Origin: Clostridiales bacterium
Lineage (GTDB): Bacteria > Bacillota > Clostridia > Lachnospirales > Lachnospiraceae
Assembly: GCA_021204045.1 (NCBI GenBank)
Contig: JAJQAA010000039.1
Location: 1-64,000 of the forward strand
Direction of reading: 5' to 3'
DNA length: 64,000 nucleotides
The notes beneath the pieces were generated by a model. That model was given only the letters and a program-made list of their open reading frames with translations, did not search any database and had not been told where the DNA came from. Below, piece by piece: positions 1,032-19,168 of the stretch. How positions within the stretch are numbered: position 1 is the first letter of the stretch; every line of letters begins with the position of its first letter. Made by a program: the position numbers and the translations under genes.

Positions 1032-2756
1032 TCACACCCGCAGGCACACCGTCGCAAATACCCGCATCACCACATAGGCGTTGACGGAGACCATCAGAAA
1101 CAGGCATTCCCGGCTGACATCCTTCGTCAGCACGACGAGATCATTTTTCATGCTCATCAGCAGCACCGGGAGCAGCGGCAGGAAATAGCGTCCCTGGACG
1201 CCGGTGATCACACTGGCGCTGAGCGGCGTCAGCGAAATCAGCATACTGAGCAGCAGCAGCCCCGAGCAGAGCACGCAGACGCACCAGACCCAGATTCGCC
1301 GGCCTCCGGTCAGCCACAAATTCTCACCCGGTTTGCGCAGCAGCAGACCGAAAAGGCAGACGGTCAGCAGAACGAGCGCCGGCCACGGTACATCGAGCAG
1401 TTCATCGAGATTTCCCAGATAACCACCCAGCATCGTCTGATAATAATAACCAGTTTGCCACACAAGCGTCTGATACAAAAGCTTACAGCAGCGAAGCGGC
1501 TGGCTGATCAGCATCCCCAGCATATAACCGGGTTCCCCGGCCCAGTCCACATAATTGGCCTCGCCGCTGCTGTAATACCCGACTGTCGCTCCGTTGAGCA
1601 GCAGCATCGCCAGCACCCAGGCGCCCAGCACAGCCGCAGCCGCGAAGCCCCAGCGCTTCCAGCCACCAAATTTTTTTACCGGAACCAGCAGGCACAGACC
1701 CGCCAGCGACACATAGACAATCTTGCAGGGACCGGCCGCGGCCATGATAATCACCATCAACACCACATCCCGCATACGCACACGCTCCGCGTGCGCCGCC
1801 AGATCCAGGCAGACCGCCGTCAACACGAACATTCCCGAAAGTAACAGCACGTCATAGGAAAACGAAGCCGTCAGATGAATCGTCATCGGCAGCAGTCCGA
1901 CACCAAACAAAACCTCTTTGCCGTACGGCAGACGGCGCATCGCATAGCTTGCCGATACCGTATAAAACAGCAAATTTGCGATACGTCCCAGGTAAAGCAG
2001 GCCAAGACTATTCAGGCCAAGCAGACGCGCCAGCGTAATGCCGAGCGCCGGAAAAAAATAGGCCGCTGCGGTTGTGCGTACCGGGTTTGCCGTGGAGAGA
2101 ACGAAATTGTCCCGAAGACTATTGGACGATGTTATGCTTTCATCCACAGCCATACCATCATCCGCCACATTGATCGGCTCACGTTTTTCCTCGAAGCCCC
2201 AAAGCCCCTTCTCATGGATCTGGCGGTAGGTCTCCTCCGTCAATGTCTGGCCAAGCACCTGCGCGTCAGCCGCGCCTTCCTCATCGACATACATCAGGCC
2301 ATCCGGCCTCAGGCGTGCTTTATAAGTCCCCTGCGAATCTTCTGCGAACCAGTCCTCCTCGCGCACCGGGATCTGGTGCGTCCATTCCGCGGAAACGCCC
2401 ATCATCTGATTGGAAAGGCGATAGGCGCTGATATAATGGCTGATCTCATCCGGCGCTGACAGCGGCGGCAGCACGTACAGATACAACGCGCCGAAGACCA
2501 GCGCCGCCAGTACAAAAATCGTTTCCAGACGTGCTTTCGCGCACAAAAGCAGATACCCCAGCAAAACGGCAGCCAGAATTGCCAGCGCCGCCACCGCAAG
2601 GTATCTGCCTGTCAGCCACAAATCTCCGCCTGCCAGGGCTCCCGCCTGCGCATCCATAAAATGCAGTCCCGCCAGGATAAGCAAAACCAGAAATACCGCG
2701 ATCAAAAACGGCAAATTCTCTTTACCGCTTCCGTTCATCCTCGTCCGCATTTTCAT
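1032..2756 (-). CDS. DUF2142 multi-pass membrane protein
   Basis: A 574-residue integral membrane protein with roughly a dozen hydrophobic segments and the DUF2142 signature around residues 95-120 (PPLSAPDEISHYISAYR), in which the acidic PDE and following His lie in the first external loop as in GT-C-type glycosyltransferases. DUF2142 proteins are found in polysaccharide loci and probably use a polyprenyl-phosphate sugar donor; that role is inference. It is the last gene of the glycan operon. Its start overlaps the end of the DUF2304 gene by 35 bases, pointing to translational coupling, and a GGAGG lies 9 bases before the ATG. A DPM1-like glycosyltransferase two genes upstream is the natural source of the lipid-linked donor. 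Confidence 0.82.
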   Translation of the reverse strand: MKMRTRMNGSGKENLPFLIAVFLVLLILAGLHFMDAQAGALAGGDLWLTGRYLAVAALAILAAVLLGYLLLCAKARLETIFVLAALVFGALYLYVLPPLSAPDEISHYISAYRLSNQMMGVSAEWTHQIPVREEDWFAEDSQGTYKARLRPDGLMYVDEEGAADAQVLGQTLTEETYRQIHEKGLWGFEEKREPINVADDGMAVDESITSSNSLRDNFVLSTANPVRTTAAAYFFPALGITLARLLGLNSLGLLYLGRIANLLFYTVSASYAMRRLPYGKEVLFGVGLLPMTIHLTASFSYDVLLLSGMFVLTAVCLDLAAHAERVRMRDVVLMVIIMAAAGPCKIVYVSLAGLCLLVPVKKFGGWKRWGFAAAAVLGAWVLAMLLLNGATVGYYSSGEANYVDWAGEPGYMLGMLISQPLRCCKLLYQTLVWQTGYYYQTMLGGYLGNLDELLDVPWPALVLLTVCLFGLLLRKPGENLWLTGGRRIWVWCVCVLCSGLLLLSMLISLTPLSASVITGVQGRYFLPLLPVLLMSMKNDLVVLTKDVSRECLFLMVSVNAYVVMRVFATVCLRV

Positions 2757-3141
2757 TCACTTTCTCCTCCGCATTCCCGTCCGTATTCCCCCTCGCTTTC
2801 CTATCCGCATTTTTCTCCGTCTCTTCCAGCGCAATTCTCTGCACCAGCTCCTGCAGCTTCATCTCCGTCTGGGATAACCGCACTGTCAGTGAGAACACTT
2901 TGACCAGCAAAAGGAAAATCACCAATGTAAAAATAAAATTGGACGGTGCCTGCGTCCCCACCAGATCCGAAAGCAGATAGGCCAGCCCGGGGAAAACGCT
3001 GAAAACGATCAGCACCAAAGAGAACAACACCCAGAAAATCGCGTCCTCGGTCCGCACGCGCGAGCGACGGATCTTATGCATCATCATTGCCATTGTCAGC
3101 ACGGAAGCGACAATCAGGCAGATTCTCAGCATCGTGCTCAT
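2722..3141 (-). CDS. DUF2304 small membrane protein
   Basis: A 139-residue protein with an N-terminal hydrophobic helix, a TEDAIFWVLFSLVLIVFSVFPG-like second region and a third helix near residues 68-85, matching the DUF2304 family, then a coiled-coil stretch and a highly charged Asn/Glu/Lys tail from about residue 112. DUF2304 genes are nearly always next to a family-2 glycosyltransferase of the DPM1 type, as here, and probably anchor or assist it at the membrane; the biochemical role is not established. It overlaps the glycosyltransferase by 4 bases and the DUF2142 gene by 35. The ATG is preceded by GGAGGG. Confidence 0.85.
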   Translation of the reverse strand: MSTMLRICLIVASVLTMAMMMHKIRRSRVRTEDAIFWVLFSLVLIVFSVFPGLAYLLSDLVGTQAPSNFIFTLVIFLLLVKVFSLTVRLSQTEMKLQELVQRIALEETEKNADRKARGNTDGNAEEKVNENADEDERKR

Positions 3142-3842
3142 TGTCTGTCCCTCCTTCGGAAATGCCGGCCATTCTGGATCAGCAGGATCGACACCAGCAT
3201 ACGCAACATATATTTCGCGGAATTAAGCGGCGTCAGATAGCTCGCTCCGGCCAGCCGCTCCTCCATCCGCACCTGCACTTCCGCCACCCGGGCGCCGTTT
3301 CTGATCAGATAAGCGATCGTGTCCGGCTCCGGTCCGTAATTCAATCCCCGCGCAAACTCGCCGATCATGGTTCGGTTGAACATGCGCATCCCCGACGTCG
3401 GATCGTGGATCACAGCTCCCGTCGTCAGACGAAGCGACGTCTCGATCATGTTACTTCCCAGCATCCGCAGCGACACGGGCTTTTTCTCGTTTAAAAAACG
3501 CGAAGCGATCACAATATCATACCCCGTCTCAATCTTGTCCAGCATCGGCTGGATAAATTCCGGCAGGTGCTGCCCATCGCCGTCAAACTGCAGCGCGTAT
3601 TCATAACCATGCCTCCAGGCGTATTTTAACCCGGTCTGGAATGCCCCCGCCAGCCCCAAATTCACCGGCAGGTCGATCAGACGACAGCCCAGGCGGCGGC
3701 AAAGCGCCGCCGTACCGTCCTGTGAACCATCATTGACAACGACAAAATCAAACTGCGGATAATGCGCCGTCAGCTCCCCGACCACGCGGGCGATGTTTTC
3801 TTCCTCATTGTAGGCCGGTATCACGATCAGTAATTTTGACAT
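3138..3842 (-). CDS. Family 2 glycosyltransferase, DPM1-like
   Basis: A 234-residue GT2 enzyme without its own membrane helices. It opens with LLIVIPAYNEEENI, then VVNDGSQDGT and the QFDGDGQH DxD motif that binds the nucleotide-sugar and metal. Size and motifs fit polyprenyl-phosphate mannose/glucose synthases, which load a sugar on undecaprenyl phosphate on the cytoplasmic side. With DUF2304 and DUF2142 it forms a plausible three-gene module: make the lipid-linked sugar, flip or anchor it, transfer it outside. The start codon overlaps the stop of the preceding gene by one base (TAATG). The sugar cannot be told from the sequence. Confidence 0.88.
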   Translation of the reverse strand: MSKLLIVIPAYNEEENIARVVGELTAHYPQFDFVVVNDGSQDGTAALCRRLGCRLIDLPVNLGLAGAFQTGLKYAWRHGYEYALQFDGDGQHLPEFIQPMLDKIETGYDIVIASRFLNEKKPVSLRMLGSNMIETSLRLTTGAVIHDPTSGMRMFNRTMIGEFARGLNYGPEPDTIAYLIRNGARVAEVQVRMEERLAGASYLTPLNSAKYMLRMLVSILLIQNGRHFRRRDRQ

Positions 3843-4867
3843 TATTTTCTCCAGTAATCGGGACTTGACGTCAGCTTGCGAATCAGAGCCTTCGGTAGCA
3901 GCCGGTAATGTTTCCCCAGCCGGAAGCCGATGTATTTACAGCCGCTCTTTATCACCAGCTCCGGCAGCAGATACCATCTGCCACGGCGAAGCAGCACGCG
4001 TGCGGTCTGCTTTACCAGGCGAATGCCTTCCCCCTCGGCTGTCAGTCCGGCAAACACCTCCGGATGCTCCGCCTGCGACACCGCCAGGTCAAAATTGCGC
4101 CGCAGCTGCTGCATCCCCGTAAAATTATGTGAATGAAATACACGCGCTTCGGCCGCGTAGGCCACGCCGTAACCGGCGTCGATTACCTGCGCCGCGTAAA
4201 GCATATCCTCATTAAAAATTGTCCGCTCCACAAATCCGTCCAGACGATTGTAAATCTCCATCCGATAGGCCGCGCAGACATTGGAGCAAAAATAAGTTTT
4301 GATTCCCAGGCGCCCCAGATCCGCCGCGGTTTTGACGCAGCTCTCCTCCGGATAATTGAACGCGCGCGTACAGCGCTCAACCATACGGCAGCCCTTCTGC
4401 GGAAGTTGGCGCGCGTAGGCCACAGCCACCGGATCCGCAAGCGGCTGATAAAGGGCAGAAACCAGGTTTTTTACCAGATCCTCATCCGCTGGCACCGCAT
4501 CCTGCGTCATGCAAATGCAGACATCGGTCCGGACATAACGCATCCCGCGTTTCCGCGTACCACCGTGGTCAAATTCTTCTTTGGTCACATGATGGACCTC
4601 AAACCCATCGATTCCATCGTAACCGCCCTCGTTCCACAGCGACGCATCCGTATTCATGATAATAATCTGCCGCACCGGGTAGGACTGGCGCTGCAGCATC
4701 TGTAAAAGCCGCGAAAATTTTTTATCCGGTCGATAGGTCGGCACCAATACGGCCACTGTCGGCTGCTTCTTCCCCGACGTTCCCCACGTCTGCTCTTTCG
4801 CTGACTCTGTCTGTGTCACCTGTGTTTCCCCCGGTTGTCTTCCCTCTGCTGTCACCATTTCCCGCAT
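3842..4867 (-). CDS. Family 2 glycosyltransferase, rhamnosyltransferase-like
   Basis: A 341-residue GT2 protein. After a hydrophilic N-terminal stretch of about 35 residues comes VAVLVPTYRPDKKF, then a region with FDHGGTRKRG and MTQDAVP typical of the RfbF/rhamnosyltransferase-like branch, and later RTIFNEDMLYAAQV, the acidic acceptor-side motif. It most likely adds a sugar to the growing glycan on undecaprenyl diphosphate. I chose the ATG at 4867 (GAGGAG 10 bases upstream) over an in-frame TTG at 4873. It follows the flippase gene by 15 bases in the same operon. Confidence 0.85.
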   Translation of the reverse strand: MREMVTAEGRQPGETQVTQTESAKEQTWGTSGKKQPTVAVLVPTYRPDKKFSRLLQMLQRQSYPVRQIIIMNTDASLWNEGGYDGIDGFEVHHVTKEEFDHGGTRKRGMRYVRTDVCICMTQDAVPADEDLVKNLVSALYQPLADPVAVAYARQLPQKGCRMVERCTRAFNYPEESCVKTAADLGRLGIKTYFCSNVCAAYRMEIYNRLDGFVERTIFNEDMLYAAQVIDAGYGVAYAAEARVFHSHNFTGMQQLRRNFDLAVSQAEHPEVFAGLTAEGEGIRLVKQTARVLLRRGRWYLLPELVIKSGCKYIGFRLGKHYRLLPKALIRKLTSSPDYWRK

Positions 4868-4882
4868 ATCCAATCTGCTCCT

Positions 4883-6169
4883 CTACGGCCGCGCCCCGGC
4901 GCGGCTCTCACGAAAAAGCTCCCGGGCCGTCATCAGCCCAAAGCATAACGCCAACAGAATCATCAACAGCAGGTAGGAAGCGGCTCCGCCAAGGATTCCG
5001 GAATGCTGTACCGCAAGCGGGGAAACCAACGCTGCCGTCAGGCAGACAAACACATAGCCGCCAAAAATCCATCGCTGTTTTTTCATGATTACCAGCGTAT
5101 AGTAAAATAAATTCATCCAGGCATTAAATCCGCCGCCCAGAATAATCAGCACCAGCGCCATCCGGCAATCTGCCAGCGCTTCACGAAGATTCCCGTAAAG
5201 CAGGCTCAGCACCGGTATCCCCAGCAGCGCGGCTCCACCCACGGCCAGCACGGTCAGACCCAAAATTACCAGAAAAAGCCTGCATACCACGCACAAAAAA
5301 TCCCGCAGCTTCCGTTCTTCCCAGAACGATGAAAGCGTTGTCAGAAAAGGACGGATCACAAAACCAGCCGCCAGGTTGATCACCGACGTCGGCATAAAGA
5401 TTGCCCCGTACACCGCCAGATCCGCGTCACGCATGTGATTCTCAATCGCGTATTTGGCGGCCGAAAAAATATAAAAATCAAGAAAGACCGATAAAAACAA
5501 AAGCAGGCAGCTGCGCGCCAATCCCACACAGCCGTCCAGAGAAAATCCCCAGTCAATATTATCCAGACCGCCGATCACGGCAATGTCAAACACAAGCACA
5601 CCCACAATCTGCGCCACAACCGCGCAGGCGCTGGCAATCACCAGCACACGCGTCACATAGAGCGCGGTGAAAAACACCGCCACGGAAAGTATCGTGCGGA
5701 AAGCATTGGATTTCCCGGTCAGATAAAGCCACCCGCTTCGCTGGAATTCCGCTTCATAGGCGTCCGCAAAACCGTCGATTACCTTGTAGCAGACCATCAG
5801 GAAGACGACCCACGCCTTCCCGGGCGTATAGCCCCGCAGAAGCGTATATGCCGCACCGATCACCATAGCCGCCGCGCTCGTGGCCAGACGCAGGTGAAGG
5901 TAATCGCCGAAGCGGTAGCGGTTCCCGACATCCGTGATCTGAAATGGCCGGATGCCAAAATAAGCGACCATGAACATCTGCTGTCCGAAGGTCGTGAACG
6001 CGAAAGTAAAGATCCCGCCCTGTTCGTCTCCGACCAGCCCGACGACGATCATCGTCAGCGCCATCGAGGCAAACGCGTAGAGGAAGCTCCCCAGCATGTT
6101 CCAGGCCATGTTCCGCCGCTCCAGCGTACGGGGATCATCGTTAATCAGTAAATGTCGTAATGCTTCCAT
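4883..6169 (-). CDS. Wzx-like polysaccharide flippase
   Basis: A 428-residue protein with about 12 hydrophobic segments, resembling lipopolysaccharide/capsule export proteins of the MOP (MATE/Wzx) superfamily. It lacks strong catalytic motifs, as expected. It most likely moves the undecaprenyl-linked repeat unit across the membrane. Its start lies inside the end of the nucleotidyltransferase gene (29-base overlap), so the two are probably translationally coupled. Its place between the sugar-activating enzymes and the glycosyltransferases supports export of a phosphorylated glycan repeat unit. Confidence 0.8.
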   Translation of the reverse strand: MEALRHLLINDDPRTLERRNMAWNMLGSFLYAFASMALTMIVVGLVGDEQGGIFTFAFTTFGQQMFMVAYFGIRPFQITDVGNRYRFGDYLHLRLATSAAAMVIGAAYTLLRGYTPGKAWVVFLMVCYKVIDGFADAYEAEFQRSGWLYLTGKSNAFRTILSVAVFFTALYVTRVLVIASACAVVAQIVGVLVFDIAVIGGLDNIDWGFSLDGCVGLARSCLLLFLSVFLDFYIFSAAKYAIENHMRDADLAVYGAIFMPTSVINLAAGFVIRPFLTTLSSFWEERKLRDFLCVVCRLFLVILGLTVLAVGGAALLGIPVLSLLYGNLREALADCRMALVLIILGGGFNAWMNLFYYTLVIMKKQRWIFGGYVFVCLTAALVSPLAVQHSGILGGAASYLLLMILLALCFGLMTARELFRESRAGARP

Positions 6170-6893
6170 TCGTCTTTATCCCTGTCTGCTCCCCGACATA
6201 ATCCAGGATACGCCGGTAATCCTCGATAAAATCGACCTCCGCCCAGAACATACCGGCGATATCCTTTACCGGCACCGCATGCTCGGCGCTGAGACTGTAG
6301 ATCGCGTCCTCCCACCATTTCCCATGGCACTGGTCGTCGATCATTTGATTAAGCCTACCAAGAAAAACCGGCACAAAAACAGCACTCAGCCAGGCGATGC
6401 CGACATATTCACAGCTCCGCTCCGGCAGCGTCAGCTCCTTGCCGTAACGCCTGAGGATACCGTTTTCCGTACCAAAAAAGTAATCGCCGTCGCGCACACG
6501 GTCCGAATCGCCGAGCAGGTACAAATCCTCATCCTTCTGCGTTTTCATAAAATCCAGGATCTCCTGCGACCAGTACACGTCGCCGTTGGCGACAATCGTA
6601 TCTTCCTGTGAAAACAGTCCCTGATTCTCCGCCATCCACAGCGAACCGATGCTGTTGGTCACATCATAAAACGGGTTATGCACAATGTGAACCGGCAATC
6701 CCTCCAGCACACGGATAATCTCCTGATAACGGTAGCCGACAATCACCGTCACCTCGATGTCGTTTTGCAGCAGCATTTCTACCGTGCGCGCAATCAGCGG
6801 CTGACCGCCGACGTCCAGCGTGCATTTCGGAATGTTGGGAATATTCTTGCTGATCCGGCTTCCTTTCCCGGCAGCCAGTAAAAATGCTTTCAT
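6141..6893 (-). CDS. LicC-like sugar-phosphate/choline-phosphate nucleotidyltransferase
   Basis: A 250-residue nucleotidyltransferase of the GT-A-like fold. It starts with MKAFLLAAGKGSR, the nucleotide-binding signature, followed by PKCTLDVGGQPL, VANGDVYW (metal-binding Asp) and EVDFIEDYRRI near the end. This arrangement is that of LicC-type CTP:phosphocholine cytidylyltransferases. Between a licD-like gene and a PLP enzyme, it probably makes a CDP-activated amino-alcohol phosphate for LicD; the substrate is inference. An AGGAGG at 6900-6905 is 6 bases from the ATG at 6893, whereas the adjacent ATG at 6896 is only 3 bases away. Confidence 0.8.
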   Translation of the reverse strand: MKAFLLAAGKGSRISKNIPNIPKCTLDVGGQPLIARTVEMLLQNDIEVTVIVGYRYQEIIRVLEGLPVHIVHNPFYDVTNSIGSLWMAENQGLFSQEDTIVANGDVYWSQEILDFMKTQKDEDLYLLGDSDRVRDGDYFFGTENGILRRYGKELTLPERSCEYVGIAWLSAVFVPVFLGRLNQMIDDQCHGKWWEDAIYSLSAEHAVPVKDIAGMFWAEVDFIEDYRRILDYVGEQTGIKTNGSITTFTD

Positions 6894-6974
6894 CATCAGC
6901 CTCCTGGTCTCATGAGCTTCGATCCACCGTTGACAACATCTTTCGTCTGTCTTAGGCAACATCTCACATTCGTC

Positions 6975-8144
6975 TCATCTCACATCGGTCTCGGACAACG
7001 CCCGCAAAAACGCTTCCATATATTGAGGCGCCCCGGTGGATATGCGCAGATACGGGCGAAGAAGCGGAGAACCATACGTCTTGACAAGTACCTTTTGCTC
7101 CGTCTCCAGCCGAGCGGCAAGATCGCCGGCCGAAAGGTGCAGCGGTTTCATAAAAACAAAATTCCCGGCCTCCTCATGCACCTCGTAACCGCGCTCCCGA
7201 AGTTCCCGCACAAGCAGCGCCTTGCCCGCGTCCGCCTGCGACTGCAGATCCGTGATCAGCTCCGGCCGCTGAAGCAGATGCTCGGCGAATTTCAGCGCCA
7301 CAGCGTTGACCTCAAACGAGGGACGCACATGATTGACATACTCAATCAGCTGCGGCTGCGCCGTCATATAAGCGAAGCGGCAGCCCGCCAGCGACAACAA
7401 CTTGGAAAACGTACGCAGGACAATAACATTGTCCCGCTGCAATGCCTGCTTTAAAAAGGTATGGCGGTAAAAATAATGATAAGCCTCATCCACAATCACA
7501 AGCGCGCCAACTTCGTTTGCTCTGTCGGCGATTGCCGCGAACTCCGCATCCGTGTAGGGACGGCCAATCGGGTTGTTCGGATTGAGCAGCACGACAAGAT
7601 CCGTATCCTCCCGGATCGCCGCAAGCACGTCAGACACAGGAATCGTAAAATCCTCTCCGATCGCGACCGGGCGGTGCTCCAGGCCGAAAATCAGGCTGTT
7701 GATGCGATACATCTCAAAGCTCGGCGCCACCGTAACCACCACGCTGCCCGGCTCCGCGAAAATCTCGTAAATATAGCGAATCGCCATGTCGGAGCCATTC
7801 GTCAGGCAGAGATGCTTCTCCGTCACCGTACATCCGCCCGGCAGATCCGCTGCTGCGGCACTTTTGACGGTCTCCCTGGCCAGTTTATCTTCTGAAAACT
7901 CCGATACATCGCCTGCAAGACATTCGTTTAGCGTATCATTCAGATAGGCGGCGAGCAGACGCTTCGTGACGCTCTCCTCCGGATACGTCGCCAGATACTC
8001 CGGCGTCAGATCCTGCTTCACATCCTCAACAAAATCCGACGGCAGACCGCCGGGGTTCTCATTCATATCCAGGCGCAGAAAACCGGCGCGCCCCTGCTGG
8101 CCGCCGACGCGCACAATATCCCGGATGCATGGTTTTACATACAT
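6975..8144 (-). CDS. HisC/CobD-like PLP-dependent aminotransferase or decarboxylase
   Basis: A 389-residue fold-type I PLP enzyme. It has the HisC-like N terminus DMNENPGGLP (residues 26-35), LTNGSDMAIRY, NPNNPIG (188-194), DEAYHYF (219-225) and the PLP lysine K248 in RTFSKLLSLAGCR. Compared with histidinol-phosphate aminotransferases it carries an insertion of about 35 residues around 71-110. No histidine gene is near; it sits between licD and the LicC-like gene and overlaps licD by 10 bases. HisC relatives include threonine-phosphate decarboxylase (CobD) and serine-phosphate decarboxylases, so it may supply an amino-alcohol phosphate for the neighbouring enzymes. Family is sure, reaction is not. 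Confidence 0.8.
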   Translation of the reverse strand: MYVKPCIRDIVRVGGQQGRAGFLRLDMNENPGGLPSDFVEDVKQDLTPEYLATYPEESVTKRLLAAYLNDTLNECLAGDVSEFSEDKLARETVKSAAAADLPGGCTVTEKHLCLTNGSDMAIRYIYEIFAEPGSVVVTVAPSFEMYRINSLIFGLEHRPVAIGEDFTIPVSDVLAAIREDTDLVVLLNPNNPIGRPYTDAEFAAIADRANEVGALVIVDEAYHYFYRHTFLKQALQRDNVIVLRTFSKLLSLAGCRFAYMTAQPQLIEYVNHVRPSFEVNAVALKFAEHLLQRPELITDLQSQADAGKALLVRELRERGYEVHEEAGNFVFMKPLHLSAGDLAARLETEQKVLVKTYGSPLLRPYLRISTGAPQYMEAFLRALSETDVR

Positions 8145-9040
8145 GGTTCTTCGTCCTTTCCCGATTGCTCTGTCGCCGATTCTTTCCCGGTATCCGGTCT
8201 GCCAAATTTCAGCCGGTACGGATAATGCGTCTTACGCTTTTCTAACGGCGGCAGCGTCATGTAATCACCGTACTGGTTTGTCAGCAGCTCCTCCATATTG
8301 TTCGCGAAAGGCACCTGCAGACCCGAAAATTCCATGCGCCGCAGCGGATAAAGCTTTGTCTTATCGACCACGTTCCAGTACGGACTTGTATCCGGCAAAA
8401 ATGCCATACGCCGGGTATTTTTTTTCTCATAACGACGGCAAACGCGCTCACAGCGGCGACGCAGCCACTCCGGCGACACGCGCAGAATACGCAGCCCCGT
8501 ATGGACAGCCCCGCACACAGCCCAGATCAGCCGCGCCTTAATGCCGGTCTGGAACAAAAAGGGCCGCGGCAGACGGCGCAGCACCAGAAGTTTGCTCCAG
8601 AACCACGCCTCCCAGGACTGCAGCTCATAAGCAATCCGCCCGTCCGCGACATTATCTAGGACATAGATGTCAAGAAAAATACCGCAGGGGCAGTGCGCGT
8701 CCTTCAGCGCTTCCTCGATAAACAGCGTACCCTTCTTCATCAGCCGCGTCGTCATCATCGGGAAGCGGCTGTCATAAGCGGCGTTGAGTGGGATATAACG
8801 ATCGGAAAGTTCTTTCTTTGCCAGCTTCAGGAAACGCTCAAAATCCCGCCGCGGCATCGCGATATCAATGTCGTCATCCCAGGGAATGAAGCCACCGTGG
8901 CGCTTCGCGCCGATCCCCGTCCCGGCAATTCCAAAATAAATCAGGCCATGACGATCGCACAGCTCCATAAAATCCTTCAGGATCTCCAGTTCGGTCTGCT
9001 GCAGGCGCCTAAGCGTCTCCTCGTCGTAAAATTTAGGCAT
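8135..9040 (-). CDS. LicD family phosphotransferase
   Basis: A 301-residue LicD protein. The family core is clear near the N terminus: YFGIAGTGIGAKRHGG, then FIPWDDDIDIAMPRRD with the acidic metal-binding residues of the nucleotidyltransferase fold. LicD enzymes transfer phosphocholine or related phospho-groups from a CDP-donor to cell-surface sugars. A GGAG 8 bases before the ATG at 9040 supports this start; an in-frame GTG at 9076 has no site. The second half is basic and looks membrane-associated. It lies 48 bases after glf and overlaps the aminotransferase gene, so donor synthesis and transfer are encoded together. Confidence 0.87.
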   Translation of the reverse strand: MPKFYDEETLRRLQQTELEILKDFMELCDRHGLIYFGIAGTGIGAKRHGGFIPWDDDIDIAMPRRDFERFLKLAKKELSDRYIPLNAAYDSRFPMMTTRLMKKGTLFIEEALKDAHCPCGIFLDIYVLDNVADGRIAYELQSWEAWFWSKLLVLRRLPRPFLFQTGIKARLIWAVCGAVHTGLRILRVSPEWLRRRCERVCRRYEKKNTRRMAFLPDTSPYWNVVDKTKLYPLRRMEFSGLQVPFANNMEELLTNQYGDYMTLPPLEKRKTHYPYRLKFGRPDTGKESATEQSGKDEEPCM

Positions 9041-9088: not shown

Positions 9089-10189
9089 TCACGCAAACTC
9101 GGTTTCCGTCCGCGCCAGCGCCGAGGCGATTACCTTATCCATGTCATAGTATTTGTATTCCGCCAGACGACCGCCGAAAACCACCTTGTCTTCTTTCGCC
9201 GCAAGCTCCGCATACCGGCTGTAAACGCCCTGGTTTTTCTCGTCATTGACCGGATAATAGGCCTCCATGCCCTCCTGCCACTCGGACGGATATTCGCGGG
9301 AAATCACGGTTTTGGGCTGCGTGCCGAACTCGAAATGCTTGTGCTCAATAATCCGGGTATACGGCGTCTCGCGATCCGTGTAATTGACCACAGCCACGCC
9401 CTGGTAATTTTCCTCATCGAGCAACTCTGTCTCAAACCGCACGGTCCGGTACTCAAGCCTGCCGAAACAATATTGATAATATGCATCAATCATGCCTGTA
9501 TATACCACTTTTTTGCCCAGGCTGTCGTAATGTTCCTTATCTGTAAGGTAATCGACGCCGGTCTCAATATCGCAGCCCTCAAACAGACGGTCGATGATCA
9601 CGTTGTAACCGCCGATCGGAATGCCCTGATAAAGATCGTTGAAATAATTGTTGTCATAGGTAAAGCGCACCGGAAGCCGCTTGATAATGAAAGACGGCAG
9701 ATCCTTACAGTCGCGGCCCCACTGCTTTTCGGTGTATCCCTTGACCAGCTTCTCATAAATGTCTGTGCCGACCAGGCTGATCGCCTGCTCTTCGAGGTTG
9801 CGCGGCTCGCCCTGCACCGCCCCGCGCTGCTTATCAATGATCGCCTTCGCCTCAGCCGGGGTACTGATCCCCCACATCTTGCTGAAGGTATTCATATTAA
9901 ACGGCATATTGTACATCTCGCCCTTATAATTAGCAACCGGGCTGTTCGTATAACGGTTGAACTCCGCCAGAGCGTTAACATAATCCCATACTTTGCGGTC
10001 GCTCGTGTGGAAAATATGCGCGCCGTAGCGGTGTACATGGATGCCTTCCACATCCTCACAGTAAACATTACCGCCGATGTGGTCACGCTTTTCCACAATC
10101 AGACAGGTCTTTCCCCGTTTCTTCGCCTCATACGCCCAGACACCGGCATACAGGCCGCTGCCGACCAGCACATAATCATAAGTTTTCAT
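9089..10189 (-). CDS. glf: UDP-galactopyranose mutase
   Basis: UDP-galactopyranose mutase, an FAD enzyme that interconverts UDP-galactopyranose and UDP-galactofuranose. The 366 residues match the bacterial enzymes. The FAD-binding VGSGLYAGVWAYEA is at the N terminus, followed by the family signatures HIGGNVY, GAHIFHTSDRKVWDYVN and YTEKQWGRDCKDLP, and a C-terminal GRLAEYKYYDMDKVI. As first gene of the operon it shows that the glycan contains galactofuranose. The ATG follows AAGGGGAT by 7 bases. Confidence in the function is high. Confidence 0.96.
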   Translation of the reverse strand: MKTYDYVLVGSGLYAGVWAYEAKKRGKTCLIVEKRDHIGGNVYCEDVEGIHVHRYGAHIFHTSDRKVWDYVNALAEFNRYTNSPVANYKGEMYNMPFNMNTFSKMWGISTPAEAKAIIDKQRGAVQGEPRNLEEQAISLVGTDIYEKLVKGYTEKQWGRDCKDLPSFIIKRLPVRFTYDNNYFNDLYQGIPIGGYNVIIDRLFEGCDIETGVDYLTDKEHYDSLGKKVVYTGMIDAYYQYCFGRLEYRTVRFETELLDEENYQGVAVVNYTDRETPYTRIIEHKHFEFGTQPKTVISREYPSEWQEGMEAYYPVNDEKNQGVYSRYAELAAKEDKVVFGGRLAEYKYYDMDKVIASALARTETEFA

Positions 10190-15194: not shown

Positions 15195-16325
15195 TTACTG
15201 GTTCACTTCTGTATAGATCGAATTCCAGTGCTCAAGCACCTGCTCCCTGTTCTCGATCATCCAGTCGACGTCGCGGGTTACCCAGGTGACATCTTCGGTC
15301 TTGGGAAGATACGGGCTCTCGAAGTCAGCCTTGGAGTTGGTCATACGCAGCGTCCCGAGGGCTTCGCCAAGCGCGTTCTGTCCGTCAGCGCTCATCAGGA
15401 AGTTGACCATCGCCTTTGCCGCGTTGGGATGCGGGGCATCCTTGACAACCGCGCAGCCAAACGCGGACGCGGAGGTTCCTTCCTCCGGATATACCATGCG
15501 GATATTTGTCGCGCCGGACTTCAGAAGGGTGGAAGCGCCATCCTCGTAGGTGATGCCGACCGCATACTCGCCGGTCTCAACAGACTTGAAGCATACGGAA
15601 GAAGAGGTGGAGATCACCAGGCCGTTGTTCATCAGCTGCGTGATGTAATCCCAAGCTTCGTCGCTGTCTTTTCCAAATACGGACATGATGTTGCAGACGT
15701 TGTTCCATGCCGCCGAAGAGGAGTTCGGATCGGAGAAAACGATCTTGCCGTTCAGCGCCGGATCGAGCAGATCCGCGTAGCTGTTGATCTCAAGTCCCAG
15801 CTCTGCCTCAAGATCGGTATTGATGCAGAATACGCAGGTAGAAAGATGGTCAAGGTTGTAAAAACCGTTGTTGGATCTGTAGTCCTCAATGACCTCATCC
15901 TCGTAATCGGAAAGCCAGTGCTCAAAGATATCGCTGTAGGTATCGCCGTCACTGTTGCTCAGGCCGCCCCACATGATGTCGCCCTGGGGATTGGCGGCCT
16001 CAGCAGCAATTCTCGCGGTCAGCTCGCCGGCCGAACCGTTCACGACCTCGACCTCGCAGTCGGGATACAGCTCGTTGAATTTCTCGATCAGGTTGTCCAG
16101 ATCGTTCTCCGTCATACTGGAATAAAGAACCAAGCTGTCCTCAATATCCACTTCTTCCGCAGCCGCTTCTGTTTCCTCAGCCGCAGCCTCTGTCGCGGCC
16201 GCCTCGGTAGCCGTTGCTGTCGTTGCTGCCGCCGTCGTCGATGTGCTCGAGCTGGAACTGCCACATGCGCTCAGAGCCGCTGCCGTCATGATAACCGTCA
16301 TAACCAATGCTAATTTCTTCCTCAT
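15195..16325 (-). CDS. ABC transporter substrate-binding lipoprotein, ferric-iron/AfuA type
   Basis: A 376-residue extracellular binding protein, family 1. Signal peptide with LSACGSSS lipobox (Cys 21), then an Ala/Thr/Glu low-complexity spacer to about residue 60, then the core: LVLYSSMTENDLDNLIEKF, QGDIMWGG, VGITYEDGAS. This is the fold of FbpA/AfuA/FutA ferric-iron binders and of the related 2-aminoethylphosphonate and thiamine binders; the ligand is not decided by sequence. It is last in an operon after the ATPase and the permease. Confidence 0.85.
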   Translation of the reverse strand: MRKKLALVMTVIMTAAALSACGSSSSSTSTTAAATTATATEAAATEAAAEETEAAAEEVDIEDSLVLYSSMTENDLDNLIEKFNELYPDCEVEVVNGSAGELTARIAAEAANPQGDIMWGGLSNSDGDTYSDIFEHWLSDYEDEVIEDYRSNNGFYNLDHLSTCVFCINTDLEAELGLEINSYADLLDPALNGKIVFSDPNSSSAAWNNVCNIMSVFGKDSDEAWDYITQLMNNGLVISTSSSVCFKSVETGEYAVGITYEDGASTLLKSGATNIRMVYPEEGTSASAFGCAVVKDAPHPNAAKAMVNFLMSADGQNALGEALGTLRMTNSKADFESPYLPKTEDVTWVTRDVDWMIENREQVLEHWNSIYTEVNQ

Positions 16326-16377
16326 AATAACACCTCTCCTTTTTTTATTTCCATCGGCATCGCCGGTGAATAACGAT

Positions 16378-18027
16378 TTAAAGCTTGATATCCTCGGCCT
16401 TGCTGACCAGCAGATATATGATCAGGGAAGCCGCGGTCACCACGGTCAGGATCGCCGCGAAGGCTGCCGCCAGACCGTAATTCCCTCGCGAGATCGCCAC
16501 ATAGGCGGACATCGTCAGAGTGATATTTTTATTGTTGTACAGAATGATAGAGCTGGAAAGCTCCGTCACAATCGCGACCCAGCTTAGGATCGCTCCGGAA
16601 AGAATACCGTTGGACATCATCGGAACGGTAATCTGCGTAAATGTTTTCAGCTTTGACGCTCCCAGGCTGATCGAAGCTTCCTCTATGCTCATCGGGATCT
16701 GCATCAGCGTGGCCGTGGCCGATCGTATCGTGTACGGCATTCGTCGTATGACGAACGAGATCAGCATGATCCAGATCGTCCCGGTCAGCGCCAGCGGCTT
16801 GCTGCCGAACGCGATAACCAGCGCGATACCGATGACGGAACCCGGCATAATGTACGGGAGCATCGCCATCGTGTCGATCGCGTGATTGAGGAAACTCGAA
16901 CGGCGCACGACAAGGTAGGCAATTAGGATCGATATGATAATGATAATCGCCAGCGCGCCGATGCCCAGCATCATCGTATTTTTGATTGAGCGCACAAGGA
17001 GCTTCTTCACCGCCGCCTGATAATTGGCCAGCGAATAACCCGGCTTAAATACCGCCTGATCGCAGTTGCGGAAAGACAGGTAAATGATATAAACCTGCGG
17101 CATGAACGCGATGCCGATCAGTAGGTAGCTGTACAAATACATCAGCACGCCCTGGATTCCCTTCGGTTTTTTCTTCTCAATCGGATGGAGCGCGTTGATC
17201 GAAAATTTGTATCTGCTCGTCGCGTACTGCTGAATGAAGAATACGACCGCTGTCACGGCGATCGCGATCACGCTTATGGCCGCCGCAAAGTTGTGGTCGG
17301 TGCCGTTTTCGCCGAGATACTGGTTGTAAATCTCGACCGGGAAAGTCCGGAAGCCTTCTCCGATCAGCAGCGGCGTACCGAAATCGGCAAACGACTGCAT
17401 AAACACCATCAGGGAGGCTGCCAGAATCGTCGGCATCGACAGGTTCATAATGATCTGGAAAAACCGCTTGACGCCGGTACAGCCCATGTTGGCCGACGCC
17501 TCCATCAGCGTGTTGTCAATATTTTTGAACGCACCGTTCATGTACACGAACACAAGCGGGAAAAACTTGAGGGACTGCACCAGCATAATACCCCGGAAGC
17601 CGTAAATGCTGCCAAGCTGGATCCCGAACGTATTTTTAAGGAACTGCGTAATCACGCCCGAACGCCCGAGCAGCAGGATCCACGAGTACGCGCCGATAAA
17701 CGGGGCCGACATACAGCAGAGGATGCTGAGGACAAACATGAGCTTCGCGCCCTTGAGCCGGTAAAACGAATAAAAATACGAAAGCGGTATCCCGATAATC
17801 AGCGTGACGATCGTCAGCGTGATGCTGACCTTAAAGCTGTTTAAAATGGTCTTACTGTAGTAGCTCTGGGAAAAGAATTTGACAAACTGCTCCAGCGTAA
17901 ACTGACCATCCTTGGATATCACCGCCTGCTTTAAGATACCAAGCATCGGATATACCAAAAATATCAGGAACAGCACCAGAAACAGAACGGTAACCCCCGA
18001 CCAGAGCTCGAATTTCCTGCGTTTCAC
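16378..18027 (-). CDS. ABC transporter permease, fused two-domain, iron type
   Basis: A 549-residue permease made of two homologous halves, each with about six membrane segments and an EAA-type loop (EASANMGCTGVKRFFQI near 177-193 and EEASISLGASKLKTFTQI near 445-462) that docks the ATPase. Such fused permeases belong to the FbpB/AfuB ferric-iron family and relatives. Translation most likely starts at a GTG (18027) preceded by a G-rich site. It lies 30 bases after the ATPase gene and 52 before the binding-protein gene. Confidence 0.87.
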   Translation of the reverse strand: MKRRKFELWSGVTVLFLVLFLIFLVYPMLGILKQAVISKDGQFTLEQFVKFFSQSYYSKTILNSFKVSITLTIVTLIIGIPLSYFYSFYRLKGAKLMFVLSILCCMSAPFIGAYSWILLLGRSGVITQFLKNTFGIQLGSIYGFRGIMLVQSLKFFPLVFVYMNGAFKNIDNTLMEASANMGCTGVKRFFQIIMNLSMPTILAASLMVFMQSFADFGTPLLIGEGFRTFPVEIYNQYLGENGTDHNFAAAISVIAIAVTAVVFFIQQYATSRYKFSINALHPIEKKKPKGIQGVLMYLYSYLLIGIAFMPQVYIIYLSFRNCDQAVFKPGYSLANYQAAVKKLLVRSIKNTMMLGIGALAIIIIISILIAYLVVRRSSFLNHAIDTMAMLPYIMPGSVIGIALVIAFGSKPLALTGTIWIMLISFVIRRMPYTIRSATATLMQIPMSIEEASISLGASKLKTFTQITVPMMSNGILSGAILSWVAIVTELSSSIILYNNKNITLTMSAYVAISRGNYGLAAAFAAILTVVTAASLIIYLLVSKAEDIKL

Positions 18028-18057
18028 TGTCCGATTCCCCCTCTCTCAGATCCGGTT

Positions 18058-19168
18058 TCAGGCTTCACAGTCATTGGCCACTCCGGTCAGCAGGTTTTCC
18101 GAACCGTCAGCGGTAAACAGGTTTGCCTTCTCCGTGTTGATCGTCAGGGAAATCTCCGTGCCCGGGGCAATCACGCTGTCAATCGTGGATTCCTGGATGG
18201 ATTCCACCTCCAGGCCATCCTCAAGGTGCATAAAGTAATGCGTATTGAGACCCAGAAATACACAGTCATCCACGATGGCCTTGATTCCCTTCCCCGCCTC
18301 TCTGTTCATGAGGAACTCCTCTGGACGGACAGATATCGTGATATCCTGGTCGTGCTGGCATTCTTTCCTCACATGATGCATCGGCGCGTCGTAATTCAGG
18401 AATCTCAGATGCGGCACGCCGTCCTTCATCACAAGCTGCCCTTTTAATATATTACTGCGGCCGATGAAAGTCGCGACAAACTGGTTCGCCGGTCTCTGAT
18501 AGATATTCTTCGGCGTCCCGATGTGCTGGATCACGCCGCCGTTCATGACCGCGACCCGGTCGGAAACCGCCATGGCCTCCTCCTGGTCATGCGTTACGTA
18601 AACCGTCGTAATCCCGACATCATGCTGAATATTTTTGATAACGGTACGCATCTCCACGCGAAGCTTGGCGTCGAGGTTGGACAACGGCTCGTCCATGAGC
18701 AGCACATCCGGTTCGATACAGAGTGCACGGGCCAGCGCCACACGCTGCTGCTGGCCGCCTGATAAACGATCCGGAAGACGGTCCGCAAACTCATTAATCT
18801 GCATCAGGTTCAGGAACTTCTCGGAACGCTCCTTGATCTCTTCCTTGGGGAAATGCTTGTTTTTCAGGCCAAACTCCACATTCTTGCGCACGGTCAGGTG
18901 CGGAAAGATCGCATAATTCTGGAATACCATACCGATATTTCTCTTGGCCGGGTCGAGATCGTTGATCCGCTTCTCATTAAAATAAAAATCACCGCCCTCG
19001 ATCGAGTTGAACCCTGCGATCATGCACAGAAGCGTCGTCTTTCCGCAGCCGGACGGCCCAAGGAGCGTGAAAAACTCCCCCTTCCTTTATCTTCATGTTC
19101 AAATCCGGAATAATCACTTTCTCGCCGTATTTTTTCAGTGCGTGATTTATGGTGATATTCACACTCAT
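18058..19168 (-). pseudogene. ABC transporter ATPase, frameshifted near the Walker A motif
   Basis: An ABC ATPase of the FbpC/PotA type, 369 residues if repaired. Starting at the ATG at 19168 (GAGGA 8 bases upstream) the protein runs MSVNITINHALKKYGEK to about residue 31, then leaves frame at a run of five G (19077-19081). Removing one G restores LLGPSGCGKTT and continues into the long frame with MIAGFNSIEGG, the Q-loop, LSGGQQQR signature, LLMDEP Walker B and a C-terminal TOBE-like region (FVATFIGRSNILKG). As given, the uninterrupted frame (18058-19023) lacks Walker A and could not hydrolyse ATP. A sequencing error, a slippage-prone phase switch or true loss are all possible. Confidence 0.85.

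Follow-up and report, generated by a model that had tools for sequence, protein, structure and literature searches.

The 64,000-nucleotide stretch analyzed here (positions 1 to 64,000 of the forward strand of contig JAJQAA010000039.1, assembly GCA_021204045.1, from a Clostridiales bacterium of the family Lachnospiraceae), hereafter called the window, carries a minus-strand gene cluster in which a LicD-family phosphotransferase, a pyridoxal phosphate (PLP) enzyme of the HisC/CobD fold and a LicC/PntC-type nucleotidyltransferase (NTP enzyme) are encoded by overlapping or adjacent genes (Table 1). Coordinates and Pfam matches bear out the initial annotation on this arrangement, as they do on the glycosyltransferases said to follow, since two family 2 genes (Glycos_transf_2) lie downstream. 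The order of transcription is glf, licD, the PLP gene, the NTP gene, the membrane-protein gene, the two glycosyltransferase genes and the genes for the DUF2304 and DUF2142 proteins. The licD and PLP genes overlap by 10 bases and the NTP and membrane-protein genes by 29, and 78 bases separate the PLP gene from the NTP gene.

Table 1. Genes of the cluster in the window, in order of transcription
Feature	Position	Strand	Evidence
UDP-galactopyranose mutase (glf), galactofuranose source	9089..10189	-	Pfam GLF 2.2e-80
LicD-family phosphotransferase	8135..9040	-	Pfam LicD PF04991 1.5e-35; 124.1 bits in whole-genome search
PLP enzyme, HisC/CobD fold, distinct family; proposed amino-alcohol-phosphate synthase	6975..8144	-	Aminotran_1_2 7e-37
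LicC/PntC-type nucleotidyltransferase (NTP enzyme), proposed CTP:amino-alcohol-phosphate cytidylyltransferase	6141..6896	-	NTP_transf_3 2e-11
Membrane protein, possible glycan exporter	4883..6169	-	Position downstream of NTP gene; no Pfam match over cut-off
Family 2 glycosyltransferase	3842..4873	-	Glycos_transf_2 1.2e-08
Family 2 glycosyltransferase	3138..3842	-	Glycos_transf_2 8.7e-29
DUF2304 protein	2722..3141	-	DUF2304 1.7e-29
DUF2142 predicted membrane protein, same cluster	1032..2756	-	DUF2142 7.7e-33

As relatives we used the best 80 of 175 loci collected by PLP protein sequence alone. The order glf-licD-PLP-NTP is repeated in L004 and in L006 to L011, and because of this recurrence the gene set is not a chance grouping; the sequence of L005 ends after its PLP gene. 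In L004 to L011, glf lies no more than 1 kb upstream. In L004 and L006 to L011, the NTP gene likewise has a membrane-protein gene downstream. The label “flippase” given to this protein in the initial annotation found no backing in Pfam: seven of eight aligned members were without a match at an E value of 1, and the eighth had a subthreshold match to ABC2_membrane_3 (E value 0.012).

The PLP enzyme has the hallmarks of the HisC/CobD superfamily, namely fold type I, class I/II, a Schiff-base Lys and a C-terminal Arg. Lys248 and Arg367 are kept in all 68 rows of the family alignment, which comprises the window and 67 of the 80 relatives after 13 similar or cut-off rows were dropped, and the structure model has a predicted local distance difference test (pLDDT) score of 92.1. 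The enzyme scored 218.3 bits on the hisC model TIGR01141 (215.6 in the genome search; cut-off, 276.55) and 141.1 bits on the CobD model TIGR01140 (cut-off, 290.55). Its own genome (2.75 Mb in 67 contigs, 99.08% complete) has a separate HisC at C8:20681 (291.6 bits) and a separate CobD at C40:51948 (295.6 bits), each above its cut-off. Because both curated cut-offs are missed and the genome has another gene over each, the PLP enzyme is, judged by these profiles, neither HisC nor CobD. It is also accessory rather than housekeeping, because at an E value of 1e-60 only 3 of 24 same-genus genomes have the family, whereas all 24 have a relative of HisC. A plasmid search with the PLP protein gave no match at 1e-30.

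These results bear on two alternatives. The gene might have arisen by duplication of that for histidinol-phosphate aminotransferase, have an ordinary role in amino acid metabolism and lie in a glycan cluster by accident, as its top NCBIfam match (hisC) and its top solved matches, also HisC, would allow. However, the sequence test raised in the initial annotation placed the enzyme below a cut-off that another gene of the same genome exceeds, and the uneven presence of the two families in the genus and the tie of the PLP family to cytidylyltransferases described below also argue against this explanation, which we consider highly improbable. Alternatively, the enzyme might decarboxylate threonine-phosphate as does CobD, which has the same fold and whose model it matches, so that the decoration would be aminopropanol-phosphate. 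Given that the genome has its own CobD, and that CobD is a more distant solved relative than HisC, we hold this to be very unlikely.

Two features of the PLP enzyme proved uninformative about its substrate or about the family at large. Lys355 is by eye equivalent to the residues that we take to be Arg323 of CobD and Arg322 of HisC. Across the 68 rows this position is Lys in 36, His in 28 and Arg in 4; His is found at no locus with a LicC-type gene on the same strand, and it is found in L012, whose LicC-type gene is on the opposite strand. Position 355 was rejected as an indicator of substrate, since its residue differs between clades without separating decarboxylases from transaminases. The insertion noted in the initial annotation near residues 71 to 110 exists, at about residues 70 to 104, but no general meaning can be attached to it: it is complete in the window only, shortened in L004 and L005 and missing from the other 24 of 27 alignment rows, and it was modeled with low confidence (mean pLDDT of 47 for residues 81 to 90 and 56 for residues 91 to 100). 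It is thus a lineage-specific loop and not a conserved feature.

The association of the PLP family with cytidylyltransferases extends well beyond the window. Within 4 kb of the PLP gene, such an enzyme is encoded in 74 of the 80 loci, 20 times of the LicC type (counted on the same strand) and 54 times of the TagD type, and in 50 of the 52 loci whose flanks reach 4 kb or more on each side. Three of the six remaining loci (L005, L053 and L081) stop no more than about 500 bases from the PLP gene, L012 has its LicC-type gene on the opposite strand, and L019 and L073 have none. In a matched comparison within 1.33 kb on either strand, a cytidylyltransferase was found in 72 of 80 PLP loci (or 59 of the 64 with complete flanks) and in none of 29 loci of true HisC in relatives; LicD was found in 23 of 80 and in none of 29, respectively. 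The HisC control excludes the window's own genome and comes mostly from one genus, so that its rows are not independent. No locus combines both types of cytidylyltransferase at the threshold used, although L036 has a weak second LicC-type match (3e-07).

Partner type switches seven times between LicC and TagD on the PLP tree. This tree was built quickly from 87 rows and its outgroup branches are very long; we used it only for partner changes and not for rooting. It omits L086 and L087, which, judged by equal profile scores and lengths, seem to be identical to the L004 and L005 proteins. One genome has two copies, L008 with a LicC-type and L014 with a TagD-type partner, that are drawn as sisters with a support of 82. 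The two unrelated cytidylyltransferases thus seem to serve one product, and that both accompany a single PLP family is our chief reason for thinking that the PLP product would be cytidylylated.

Other genes also stand beside the PLP gene. A 60KD_IMP (YidC-like)-Glyphos_transf fusion is next to or near it at L033:6049-7917, L041:5914-7980, L053:3-2342 and L080:5818-7716, with a relative in L014 by profile; this fusion may be another transferase for the group activated with cytidine diphosphate (CDP). The PLP gene is immediately preceded by an HPr-like phosphocarrier gene at L037:7650-7910 (Pfam PTS-HPr) and by another, recognized by profile, in L017.

The genome of the window has a second LicD gene, in L084 (C22, 351-12435), near two nucleotidyltransferase-like genes with weak profile matches and a family 2 glycosyltransferase gene; no match to the PLP family was found across the 19.9 kb examined there. 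By eye from the translations, an ATP-binding cassette transporter set (binding protein, permease and ATPase) lies near both LicD clusters, at 15195-19023 of the window and at L084:15183-19291.

We then considered what the NTP enzyme might activate. The profile used for comparison with the PDB had 21 rows, made of the window and 20 of 24 matches (L012 was dropped for its opposite strand, L017 because it is cut off, together with the second L069 copy and L086). Its best matches were pneumococcal LicC (1jyk; 3.2e-24) and Treponema PntC (6pd1; 5.5e-23), followed at a distance by an inositol-phosphate cytidylyltransferase (1.6e-11). The family is thus nearest LicC and PntC, and use of cytidine triphosphate (CTP) is predicted. 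The box of the LicC pocket includes W136 and Y190. By hand-counted alignment, the LicC pocket residues described in PMC6697681 fall on N103, E195, Y138 and W193 of the window enzyme; LicC Asp105 aligns with N103, and PntC Glu196, on the amine side, with the invariant E195. Such a pocket would fit an amine-bearing substrate, with ethanolamine and choline not separated.

This kinship also raises a phosphonate (Pnt) cluster, in which the NTP enzyme would be a PntC and the PLP enzyme would serve as the aminoethylphosphonate transaminase. The family is nearly as close to PntC as to LicC, the alignment of E195 with Glu196 is compatible with that assignment, and phosphoenolpyruvate (PEP) mutase exceeds its cut-off in 8 of 47 genomes of relatives, including those of L006 and L008. 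That survey covered 49 distinct loci of the 80 and counted matches anywhere in the genome. However, the other 39 genomes have no PEP mutase over the cut-off, the best match in the window's own genome reached 22.9 bits (cut-off, 31.5), and Treponema PntC is fused to a transaminase that carries a class V name (6pd1) and was solved from an alanine-glyoxylate aminotransferase search model, whereas the window enzyme is of class I/II. For want of a PEP mutase over the cut-off in the own genome, and given the class of the PLP enzyme, the phosphonate pathway was rejected; we regard it as the least probable of the explanations weighed here.

The TagD-type partner is similar to glycerol-3-phosphate cytidylyltransferase. 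In 52 of 54 cases its reading frame also encodes a fused GFO/IDH/MocA domain, the exceptions being L027, which is cut off, and L056. We take an EKP motif to be characteristic of this domain; its Lys is retained in 5 and missing in 47 of the 52 aligned full-length fusions (for example, L022:4354-5706). The domain is therefore probably not catalytic, to judge from this motif, and perhaps is a dead redox domain retained for structure. A redox step by the TagD-type partner was rejected on the same count.

A subset of loci suggests which amino alcohol may be involved. A methyltransferase gene runs in the same direction within the clusters of L021, L034, L059, L062 and L069; it adjoins the PLP gene in all but L021, where the TagD-type gene intervenes. 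In L050 the methyltransferase gene is on the opposite strand, 2 kb away. The hosts of the subset are two Cohnella, an uncultured Clostridia, a Mitsuokella and a Roseburia metagenome-assembled genome. When a seven-row methyltransferase profile was compared with the PDB, the top three matches were phosphoethanolamine N-methyltransferases (1.0e-16, 2.9e-16 and 2.9e-11), as were 11 of the first 18, and the L059 protein alone matched only such enzymes. We read these matches as pointing to an enzyme that would turn ethanolamine-phosphate into phosphocholine. Choline kinase was over its cut-off in none of the five genomes with a methyltransferase cluster (two have weaker matches), versus 5 of 15 other LicC-type genomes searched. 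Because the window's own genome has no such methyltransferase at an E value of 1e-25, its product would be unmethylated. In L069:5125-7985, two methyltransferase genes and two LicC-type genes share one cluster, and one NTP copy is shorter (213 amino acids).

Taken together, these data make it likely that the cluster serves a general scheme in which a self-made phospho-amino-alcohol is CDP-activated and transferred to a surface glycan. For the ethanolamine version of this scheme we see somewhat better than an even chance. In that version, the PLP enzyme would decarboxylate phosphoserine to ethanolamine-phosphate, the likeliest conversion, the LicC-type enzyme would, by family membership, use CTP to form the CDP-amino-alcohol, and LicD would move the phospho-amino-alcohol onto a glycan made with galactofuranose. 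We put phosphoserine first among the substrates on the strength of the methyltransferase subset and of the precedent of Cj1436, described as a phosphoserine decarboxylase in capsule synthesis (PMC11800397). Transfer has a precedent in the LicD-family protein mf1, described as transferring phosphoethanolamine from CDP-ethanolamine (PMC11982090). The initial annotation had proposed this sequence of internal synthesis, CTP activation and LicD transfer. Its outline holds up, in view of the cytidylyltransferase tie and the kinship with LicC and PntC; its substrate and chemistry have the standing of proposals. That the decoration would be made internally and not from scavenged choline agrees with the lack of a choline kinase (PF01633) match at an E value of 0.001 in the window's own genome, where LicB was not searched for.

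More broadly, we tentatively propose, as a possibility short of an even chance, that phosphoserine is turned into ethanolamine-phosphate for surface decoration by an unnamed, widespread PLP family, found to a large extent in Bacillota and Bacteroidales of the gut and rumen, and that in a subset of loci the clustered N-methyltransferase gives phosphocholine without external choline.

Several observations weigh against these readings. Linkage to licD, on which the initial annotation had staked its proposal, is present, but only 38 of the 80 PLP loci (29 of 52 with full flanks) have LicD at a distance of up to 4 kb. Choline kinase exceeds its cut-off in five genomes of relatives with window-like or LicC-type loci. 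As to the methyltransferase, the L069 protein alone matched only a dimethyladenosine transferase, the NCBIfam names for the L059 protein were those of other methyltransferases, all below cut-off, and no phosphoethanolamine N-methyltransferase was among 50 listed fold matches. A search of 295 genomes of the order gave two more methyltransferase loci, L096 and L097, with a PLP gene in neither examined stretch. L097:4623-8486 has the order methyltransferase, LicC-type, LicD, LicD, and a second source of phosphoethanolamine is possible there; L096 has no LicC-type, LicD or PLP gene. Finally, by both profile and fold the PLP enzyme is closer to HisC than to CobD, and its best solved matches are HisC.

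The last point favors a different chemistry, in which the PLP enzyme would be a transaminase that converts dihydroxyacetone phosphate (DHAP) to serinol-phosphate, with CDP-serinol formation and transfer to follow; HisC is itself a transaminase, and Cj1437 is described as producing (S)-serinol-phosphate (PMC11800397). By analogy, serinol-phosphate would be an amino counterpart of glycerol-3-phosphate, the substrate of the enzyme that the TagD-type partner resembles, and Glyphos_transf domains lie next to some loci. In contrast, the phosphoethanolamine-methyltransferase-like gene in five clusters favors ethanolamine-phosphate, and the closest solved relatives of the NTP enzyme, LicC and PntC, use choline-phosphate and aminoethylphosphonate. 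Serinol-phosphate takes second place in our ranking, given the closer kinship of the family with HisC and the likeness of the TagD-type partner to glycerol-3-phosphate cytidylyltransferase, and we consider it rather unlikely.

If the ethanolamine-phosphate scheme is correct, many bacteria would decorate their surface with phosphocholine or phosphoethanolamine groups out of their own metabolism. Phosphocholine and phosphoethanolamine on glycans are described as interacting with the mammalian immune system (PMC11982090). The nearest named family of the PLP enzyme is histidinol-phosphate aminotransferase, and it could easily be annotated as such. From the exchange of cytidylyltransferase types and the loci with a methyltransferase comes a short list of enzymes for assay. 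Judged by titles and abstract openings, the open-license literature yielded no description of a HisC-like PLP enzyme combined with LicC and LicD. The chemistry of each step has precedent, and the combination is a new variation on the Lic and Pnt types of CDP-activated surface decoration.

The closest parallels are the Lic-1 and Pnt systems. The Lic-1 route to phosphocholine (LicA-LicB-LicC-LicD; PMC10434233) has in common with the window a LicC-type cytidylyltransferase, LicD, a CDP-activated donor and a surface glycan. It is described as beginning with choline from the environment (PMC10434233), whereas its choline kinase, LicA, has no match in the window's own genome and the PLP enzyme would supply the phospho-amine. 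The Pnt pathway, in which PntC tailors with aminoethylphosphonate (PMC6697681), likewise is described with an internal PLP step before a LicC-like CTP transferase. It differs in that the window genome has no PEP mutase over the cut-off and in that the PLP enzyme is of class I/II and not class V, a comparison made on the PLP gene.

As to the PLP enzyme itself, HisC is the nearest family by sequence and fold, with the enzyme under the HisC cut-off and a true HisC elsewhere in the genome; it is also below the cut-off of CobD, the threonine-phosphate decarboxylase, and has Lys355 where CobD, by eye, has Arg. Cj1436 and Cj1437 of Campylobacter jejuni, described as a phosphoserine decarboxylase and a DHAP transaminase (PMC11800397), likewise provide ethanolamine- or serinol-phosphate for a surface polysaccharide, a likeness drawn from their described activities. 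Their product is joined to glucuronate as an amide and loses its phosphate; the window instead has a CTP transferase type and LicD. The mf1 protein of Mycoplasma fermentans (PMC11982090) shares the LicD family and accepts CDP-ethanolamine, but it acts on glucosyl diglyceride, and the window LicD scored 70.9 on the Mf1 model, against a cut-off of 225. Lastly, the route proposed for the methyltransferase subset would be a bacterial counterpart of the serine-to-phosphocholine route of plants and Plasmodium, linked to LicC and LicD or to the enzymes in their place.

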